This document shows, in pieces, positions 62,903 through 64,000 of a stretch of 64,000 bases of DNA. Position 1 is the first letter of the stretch. Each line of letters begins with the position of its first letter. The translations under genes and the position numbers were made by a program. The stretch comes from Flammeovirgaceae bacterium 311 (GTDB lineage: Bacteria > Bacteroidota > Bacteroidia > Cytophagales > Cyclobacteriaceae): contig CP004371.1 in assembly GCA_000597885.1 (NCBI GenBank), positions 2,248,501 to 2,312,500 on the forward strand. Direction: 5' to 3'. Under the pieces are notes generated by a model. The model did no database searches and was not told the origin of the DNA. It worked only from the letters and a program-made list of their open reading frames with translations.

Positions 62903-62957
62903 TTGGTATTGAGTATAGCGTAGTGAGTATCGGGTATTGAGTATGAGGTGGTATATT
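62903..62957. repeat. GTATTGAGTA-type low-complexity repeat, second cluster
   Basis: Units GTATTGAGTATAG, GTAGTGAGTATCG and GTATTGAGTATGAG follow the BrkB-family stop. They match the repeat at 58184-58250. Confidence 0.75.
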
Positions 62958-63110: not shown

Positions 63111-63197
63111 AGAGGAGTGGCAGAGCGGTCGAATGCGGCGGTCTTGAAAACCGTTGAACCTTTGCGGGTTCCGGGGGTTCGAATCCCTCCTCCTCTG
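63111..63197 (+). tRNA. tRNA-Ser (TGA anticodon)
   Basis: An 87-base class II tRNA with acceptor AGAGGAG/CTCCTCT, discriminator G, anticodon stem CGGT/ACCG around CTTGAAA (anticodon TGA), a long variable arm (TTGAACCTTTGCGGGTTCC) and GGGGGTTCGAATCCC. CCA is not encoded. It is intact and is followed by AT-rich, foreign-looking DNA. Confidence 0.97.
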
Positions 63198-63202
63198 CGA
63201 AA

Positions 63203-63234
63203 AAGCCCTTAGATTCAGTTCTAAGGGCTTTTTT
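63203..63234 (+). terminator. Terminator of tRNA-Ser
   Basis: AAGCCCTTAGA, loop TTCAGT, TCTAAGGGCTT, then TTTT, six bases past the tRNA 3' end. Confidence 0.9.
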
Positions 63235-63243
63235 CGTTTATAC

Positions 63244-63265
63244 GGGGTACACATAGGGGTACACA
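63244..63265 (+). repeat. Tandem GGGGTACACA repeat next to tRNA-Ser
   Basis: GGGGTACACA occurs twice (63244-63253 and 63256-63265), a 12-base period, right after the tRNA terminator. Paired short direct repeats beside a tRNA are a common form of integrase arm-type binding site; this is only inference. Confidence 0.6.
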
Positions 63266-63467
63266 GAAAATCTTAGGCAAATATGTTTCACTTAAGAAGT
63301 AGTTCTAACTTTCCTTAAACTCTTTCTCTTTATACTATGTGTAGAGTTAGAACAAACGGTATCAAATTATTGCCGAATTGTAAATGAGAAATCTCACTGT
63401 GTAAATCAAAATCCCACCAACTTGCTTTTCACCAATCCGAAATGTAAGTTGGACCATGTCATAATCA

Positions 63468-63482
63468 AAGAATGACATTCTT
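63468..63482. promoter_or_regulatory. 15-bp palindrome, candidate operator
   Basis: AAGAATG A CATTCTT is a perfect palindrome around 63475, 28 bases before the ATPase start codon. It has the size and place of a dimeric repressor site. Confidence 0.4.
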
Positions 63483-63510
63483 CATAAAAGAGGATTTAGC
63501 TAAGTAAACC

Positions 63511-64000
63511 ATGCTGAAAGACATTAAAATAATAAGAGCAGTTTCAAATATTTCTCAAAGAGCTGAGAGGCAAAAGGATACAGATAAAATAGTAAGCTCA
63601 TATGTTGAAGTAGGCATTTTACAACAACTTCTAAACAGCAATAATCAAATACTGTATGGAAGAAGAGGCACTGGCAAAACTCACATACTTAAAATGCTGG
63701 AGAGCGAGTACTCTAACAATCCATCAATAACAACTTGCTACATAGATTGTAGATTCTTAGGCAGCTCACCACAGTTTACAGACACAACACTTTCTCTATC
63801 CCACAGATGCTCATCATTGTTTATAGATATCCTTAATGAGTTAGTTGAATCGATACTTAATCATATAGCCAACAATCCTAATAGCTACTCTGAGCAGTCA
63901 CTCAAAGCATTGGATGACTTTTCCAAAGCTTCAGTTGGTGAAATACAAAAATCCAAAAAAATAATACAGCGTAACAAGGATACTAACTCTGATCAAACAG
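63511..64000 (+). CDS. P-loop ATPase, N-terminal part (cut by window edge)
   Basis: An open frame of 163 codons reaches the end of the window without a stop. It starts MLKDIKIIRAVSNISQRAE, has Walker A GRRGTGKTH at residues 50-58 after YVEVGILQQLLNS, and then CYIDCRFLG. No longer name is safe; the GRRGTGKT form occurs in AAA/ORC-like ATPases annotated in genomic islands and defence loci. Codons are AT-rich (ATA, AGA, TTA), unlike the GC-leaning neighbours, which suggests recent transfer. It begins 313 bases after tRNA-Ser. Confidence 0.8.
   Translation, partial: MLKDIKIIRAVSNISQRAERQKDTDKIVSSYVEVGILQQLLNSNNQILYGRRGTGKTHILKMLESEYSNNPSITTCYIDCRFLGSSPQFTDTTLSLSHRCSSLFIDILNELVESILNHIANNPNSYSEQSLKALDDFSKASVGEIQKSKKIIQRNKDTNSDQT

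Follow-up and report, generated by a model that had tools for sequence, protein, structure and literature searches.

A probable 48.3-kb tyrosine-integrase island at the 3' end of tRNA-Ser(TGA), and the paired repeats that mark its ends

The closest described counterpart of the locus analysed here is the 10K island of Riemerella anatipestifer, for which integration and excision have been demonstrated experimentally (PMC6764341). Both loci are from Bacteroidota and combine a tRNA 3' end with a tyrosine integrase, and on our reading of the relevant passages the 10K direct repeat includes the tRNA terminator hairpin (PMC6764341). The IntCTnDOT subgroup, with CTnDOT and NBU1, comprises arm-binding tyrosine recombinases of Bacteroidetes (PMC8138268), and the island integrase may be akin to it. 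NBU1 targets the 3' end of tRNA-Leu, according to a title cited in the same paper (PMC8138268). Phage hotspots that carry anti-phage genes are also known (PMC9122126, in part), and BREX includes ORC/Cdc6-type ATPases (PMC12839542, in part).

The window is a 64,000-nucleotide stretch (G000:C1:2248501-2312500) of G000, a single-contig genome of 6.67 Mb. We added the next 76 kb to the right, and positions above 64000 continue the window scale. The window appears to end 0.8 kb into a 48.3-kb genomic island that has a tyrosine integrase and lies at the 3' end of tRNA-Ser(TGA); judged from sequence, we put the probability of this reading at about 0.92. It draws on elements that can be read directly in the DNA, namely the intact tRNA gene, a terminator, paired repeats, an integrase open reading frame, an attR-like core, steps in base composition and the recurrence of the layout in relatives. 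The features at the two borders are as follows.

63111-63198, + strand: intact tRNA-Ser(TGA), the host gene that contains the attachment site (ARAGORN)
63185-63195, + strand: attL core CCCTCCTCCTC, an 11-mer within the tRNA 3' end (repeat search)
63185-64000, no strand: part of the probable 48.3-kb island that lies in the window; the island continues to window-scale 111544
63199-63243, + strand: stretch with the tRNA's intrinsic terminator, within the left attachment arm (folding)
63244-63265, + strand: tandem pair GGGGTACACA-TA-GGGGTACACA, period 12, putative left arm-type sites
63511-65073 (63511-64000 in the window), + strand: P-loop ATPase of 520 aa with the motif GRRGTGKTH (open reading frame and genome extension)
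Window-scale 106940-107230, - strand: excisionase-like HTH_17 gene
Window-scale 110088-111347, - strand: tyrosine integrase of 419 aa (Pfam and motifs)
Window-scale 111399-111420: second pair, AGGGAACACATCGGGGTACACA, upstream of the integrase start (degenerate pattern search)
Window-scale 111534-111544 (G000:C1:2360034-2360044), same strand as the tRNA copy: attR-like core, the second copy of CCCTCCTCCTC

The first-pass annotation of the window had placed the likely edge of an integrated element at an intact tRNA-Ser, with an AT-rich shift after it and a GRRGTGKTH gene running off the end; all of this holds. The last 800 bases have a G+C content of 34.6%, below every one of the 312 earlier 800-base windows taken at a 200-base step (minimum 39.75%). 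On the larger scale, G+C is 47.95% at 1-63198, 42.3% at 63266-111534 and 47.9% at 111600-140000, so that a step is present at both island borders. The tandem repeat that was described as abutting the tRNA terminator is real, and 45 nt containing that terminator separate it from the tRNA itself. The terminator stretch forms a hairpin with a T run (-21.2 kcal/mol, z -7.5), and none of 200 shuffles was equally stable. Reading GGGGTACACATAGGGGTACACA in full, the pair comprises GGGGTACACA copies at 63244-63253 and 63256-63265, and neither strand of the window holds another; CCCTCCTCCTC likewise occurs once in the window when both strands are searched. Shortly before the tRNA, positions 62906-62944 contain a short member of a repeat family whose arrays, with a 21-base step, recur in G000 and in the other two genomes of the genus, G001 and G002.

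An integrase was to be sought to the right of the window according to the same annotation, together with a second copy of the tRNA-Ser 3' end. The integrase is present 48 kb away, and the second copy lies just beyond it on the same strand as the first. Both PF00589 (2.5e-13) and PF13102 (8e-10) match the integrase above their cut-offs, and the arm-binding domain PF17293 falls just below (20.3 bits versus 22.6). The 419-aa open frame contains TGLR, HTGRR, GHKD and MKY, which we take to be the catalytic motifs of a tyrosine integrase. Over 60001-140000, CCCTCCTCCTC occurs on either strand only twice, at the tRNA 3' end and at 111534. No exact 12-mer of the tRNA end has a second same-strand copy; the common core is 11 bp. 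The shortness of the right core, which also misses the TG that follows the left copy, means that attR has decayed or diverged. The likely excisionase is the small HTH_17 protein encoded close to the integrase. Between these two genes lies a protein of unknown function (L007:7325-8719) that has a 35% identical counterpart at the corresponding place in G029, a genome of the same family (L106:5270-6853); the G000 copy has no Pfam match. Beyond the right core lie Xre and RES toxin-antitoxin genes.

A degenerate form of the pair, allowing up to two mismatches, was searched across the whole 6.67-Mb G000 genome and gave two matches, which are exactly the two island ends; the reversed control gave one. 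To compare related elements, we searched 390 genomes of the order with the integrase (E <= 1e-60), which yielded 16 loci in 14 genomes including G000, and added G029 for a total of 17. When periods from 10 to 14 were compared just upstream of the integrase, 12 was the outright best in 16 of the 17 loci and tied with 10 in G282, although these counts are not independent events because the loci are related. Taken alone, the integrase-side pair of G000 is unremarkable (45 of 300 shuffles were as good), and more than 5% of 300 shuffles did as well in five of the 17 loci (L108, L109, L119, L123 and L106). The degenerate pair has 22 matches in 13 of the 17 genomes versus 7 for the reversed control, and we rejected a chance repeat on these counts and on those in G000. 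Five of the 22 have no element end assigned to them, namely all three in G001, the single one in G146 and the second in G359.

The matches also delimit whole elements. G099, G153, G178 and G207 each have one match near the integrase and a second, 12-44 kb distant, that shares its contig and strand; the distal pair follows a tmRNA gene in three of the four, and in G178 it comes after an adjacent element's right end. For nine further elements we picked the integrase-side pair by eye and looked for it across 19 to 80 kb of far-side sequence, leaving out the second G099 locus, which has no clear pair. The left ends of such islands are usually hard to place, yet a far-end pair recurred in all nine; it kept the strand and differed at 0 to 3 of 20 positions. 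Among the other matches listed, each had at least 4 mismatches, save one on the reverse strand with 3, located 43 kb away in G060. An RNA gene stands directly before the far-end pair in eight of the nine (three tmRNA, four tRNA-Ser(GGA) and one tRNA-Arg), and ARAGORN found none before that of G092. The start of the pair falls 44-46 nt past the RNA 3' end in these eight elements and in G000, and a hairpin-like sequence can be seen by eye at the matching place in related elements.

When left ends were compared with pairs from different elements, an element's own integrase-side pair fitted with 0-3 mismatches, versus 4-11 for foreign pairs. The exceptions are G359, G282, G258 and G000, which share one common motif and in which foreign pairs fit equally well or better (0-5); because pairs are interchangeable within this set, the motif tracks the element only between groups. 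Both ends lie on a single contig at 14 of the 17 loci; those of G029 are on two contigs, and the remainder are G146 and the second G099 locus. Among the literature matches listed for the motif strings, no title concerned a Bacteroidota island. The simplest reading of these patterns is that the pairs at both ends would be arm-type integrase sites and that the left arm includes the terminator.

In its congener G002, the sequence is collinear with G000 at 83% identity over 3.2 kb until 4 bases past tRNA-Ser, where a different tyrosine integrase lies directly 3' of the same tRNA (L036:4207-5478, G002:C16). This G002 integrase is preceded by TGTTTCAC-like repeats. The G001 contig stops within tRNA-Ser, and no exact empty site was found in these two genomes, one being occupied and the other truncated. 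In G002 an Xre-RES pair and the tRNA are 7.8 kb apart, but we rejected the argument that this placement proves an empty site, because a second copy of the pair is present elsewhere in that genome. G002 also carries an 82-base stretch that is 93% identical to the G000 left end, comprising tRNA end, terminator and pair (L038:12857-12938, G002:C21), with no tRNA in the surrounding 3 kb. In G029, tRNA-Ser, the terminator and the same kind of pair occur together on one contig, while another contig holds a pair with an integrase and an HTH protein 77% and 81% identical to those of G000. The right core of G029 is an intact 14-mer, CCCTCCTCCTCTGC, and a second integrase, 55% identical to that of G002, follows about 180 bases past it (L106:8496-9689). 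Tandem islands at one RNA gene, in which the right end of one element runs directly into the left end or integrase of another, are seen at G178:C100:61850-102724 (L142, L122 and L131) and at L106:6885-9689.

These observations suggest a model for the insertion. The pairs of 12-bp period at the two ends would serve as arm-type sites to which the right-end integrase binds, and this enzyme would recombine the core within the tRNA 3' end. The island would supply its own tRNA 3' end and terminator, and we infer that the 3' end of tRNA-Ser(TGA) was reconstituted in this way; insertion would leave the tRNA unbroken for this reason.

The genes of the island to which names could be given are listed here from left to right.

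Left part: the ATPase; a resolvase; a PIN-domain gene; a porin-like gene; a PAS histidine kinase; a second serine recombinase
Next: a pair matching PADLOC PD-Lambda-2 A and the first third of B, presumably HigBA-like
Middle: cytochrome c assembly, NrfA-like and NrfH-like genes; then SusD, SusC and FecR
Window-scale 101455-104193 (L007:1455-4193): MmeI-like type IIG restriction-methylation gene, with a PADLOC match only from position 236
Right part: DUF6371; a D5-type primase; the HTH_17 protein; a DDE_3 transposase, presumably IS630-like; the integrase

The MmeI-like gene looks 5'-shortened in sequence. The NrfA/NrfH region occupies L006:233-5764 (window-scale 80233-85764), and copies of the cytochrome c assembly, NrfA and NrfH genes are found on other contigs of the two genus mates at 68-77% identity per aligned piece. 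Sister elements carry matches to defence models: of ten sister proteins picked by eye, nine match defence models and one, from G166, matches none. The models are DpdE, DrmMI and DruE-like (G166), PDC-M12A and B (G178), HEC-01A (G245), type IIG (G282 and G258) and an orphan methyltransferase (G359). Very large proteins matching DpdE, DrmMI and DruE are clustered in the 29-kb sister island of G166 (L160:2669-15135), and this cluster is possibly an unnamed defence system.

The island may be composite, because its internal G+C is uneven and it contains two serine recombinases and a transposase. We considered whether the 48 kb represents several insertions stacked at one tRNA rather than a single transferred unit. 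The pieces would be an integrase-primase element on the right, captured metabolic genes (nitrite reductase and SusCD) in the middle, and an AT-rich, resolvase-bearing block with the ATPase on the left. The G+C profile is consistent with such a division (39.3% at 63-80 kb, 46.0% at 80-98 kb and 41.1% at 98-111.5 kb), as are the location of both serine recombinases in the left block, the occurrence of left-block pieces on other G002 contigs (the closest, at 84-86%, on contig C30) and the tandem elements at one RNA gene in G178 and G029. However, the pair and the core each have only two copies, both at the outer borders, so that no internal junction made by the island integrase is visible. We regard stacked insertions as possible but doubtful. 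A prophage or phage satellite, as opposed to a plain genomic island, is less probable still. The D5-type primase/helicase near the integrase has strong PHROG matches, and some sister elements span only 4-12 kb. In contrast, the nine island proteins compared with PHROGs matched primase/helicase, integrase, regulator or unknown-function families, or nothing, and none matched a structural or packaging family; for the integrase, a search of viral contigs able to reach only close relatives yielded no confirmed relative. Finally, although unrelated genes commonly neighbour tRNA genes, the idea that the composition change is a coincidence and the ATPase ordinary chromosomal content was rejected as highly improbable, given the integrase, the second core copy, the pairs at both ends, the 9/9 far-end pairs and the layout repeated in relatives, together with searches that did not find the ATPase in the two genus mates or in other family members among the 390 genomes.

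The genomic-island reading is also consistent with the distribution of its first gene. Had the ATPase been conserved in place among close relatives, the first-pass annotation would have counted this against an integrated element; instead, the integrase and the repeated tRNA end exist, and the ATPase has no match in the two other genomes of the genus. Seven of the 390 genomes of the order match it, including G000; four of the other six match over most of the length, and all six lie outside the family. Within the phylum, 27 others among 395 genomes match, six of them over most of the length. Relatives 63-69% identical to the G000 protein are found in two Flavobacterium, a Nonlabens, a Polaribacter MAG (as two split ORFs) and a Calditrichia MAG. 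Identity to the Flavobacterium proteins is as high for the Calditrichia copy (69-71%) as for the Nonlabens one (67-69%), and because these identities ignore taxonomy, the gene has probably spread horizontally.

The surroundings of these relatives vary. The Calditrichia copy has ThsB-TIR, SIR2 and HerA genes close by, and the Nonlabens copy has a RelA/SpoT gene. By eye, both Flavobacterium copies share one ordinary chromosomal setting and the Bacteroidota relatives we fetched lie mostly amid ordinary-looking genes, which weighs against the gene being exclusively mobile. No conserved upstream block is obvious by eye. Viral contigs hold 11 relatives at 22-37% identity, nine of which were viewed in context. 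Three have a phage integrase adjoining or near, four lie a few kb at most from packaging, head or lysis genes, one is accompanied by a SEFIR/TIR gene, and one stands beside a phage family of unknown function.

The ATPase belongs to PF24389, ORC-CDC6-like (57.5 bits versus a cut-off of 27). A first structure model had a pLDDT of 68 and a second, built from 21 sequences, reached 79.7; with both, the best Foldseek PDB matches were archaeal Cdc6/Orc proteins, and RADAR RdrA was also listed. The better model matched Cdc6/Orc at E 1.2e-7, yet global TM was low (0.34/0.44). On our reading, the order of strands and helices at the C-terminus is compatible with a winged helix. The proposal, made from the window, that a defence module begins with this ATPase is plausible only. 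The pattern is rather that of a solitary accessory gene, often found on mobile DNA, whose function has to be judged from context. We take the gene to be cargo, and its most likely role, at about even odds, would be to counter phages or rival elements by attaching to their DNA or to their replication complexes. More tentatively, the family could represent an undescribed form of single-gene immunity, in which a Cdc6/Orc-like AAA+ switch on islands and temperate phages engages the replication origins or forks of rivals.

The ATPase is a testable anti-phage defence candidate. The pair sequence varies between element groups along with the integrase, and the pairs offer an easy means of delimiting this family of Bacteroidota islands and of matching integrases to their likely arm sites. 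Islands delimited in this manner could then be harvested for cargo. We put this end syntax forward without claiming that it is unpublished.

Compared with known systems, the ATPase falls near two described families. Sll1717 P-loop ATPases in NCBIfam match 20 of the 21 aligned members, including the window protein, at E <= 0.001, but the window protein lies below the cut-off (45.5 versus 75 bits), and nothing was found in the literature under the name Sll1717. The NCBIfam model DS41_1_antiphage, which by its name would correspond to the DS-41 system, matches 13 of the 21, again including the window protein, here with 26.9 bits against a cut-off of 370 and over residues 36-134 only. DS-41 is among the validated systems of DefensePredictor (PMC13092281, in part), and by sequence the ATPase appears to be a distant relative of it and not a member. 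In contrast to CTnDOT and NBU1, none of the 27 island proteins compared with Pfam (10 + 7 + 10) matched a relaxase, conjugation or mobilisation family. The Riemerella 10K island differs in its tRNA-Arg target, its 53-bp perfect repeat, its 10-kb size and the position of its integrase beside the tRNA, and the passages of that report covered here do not describe paired arm repeats (PMC6764341). The island itself is of a known kind, and the syntax of its ends is a useful generalisation.
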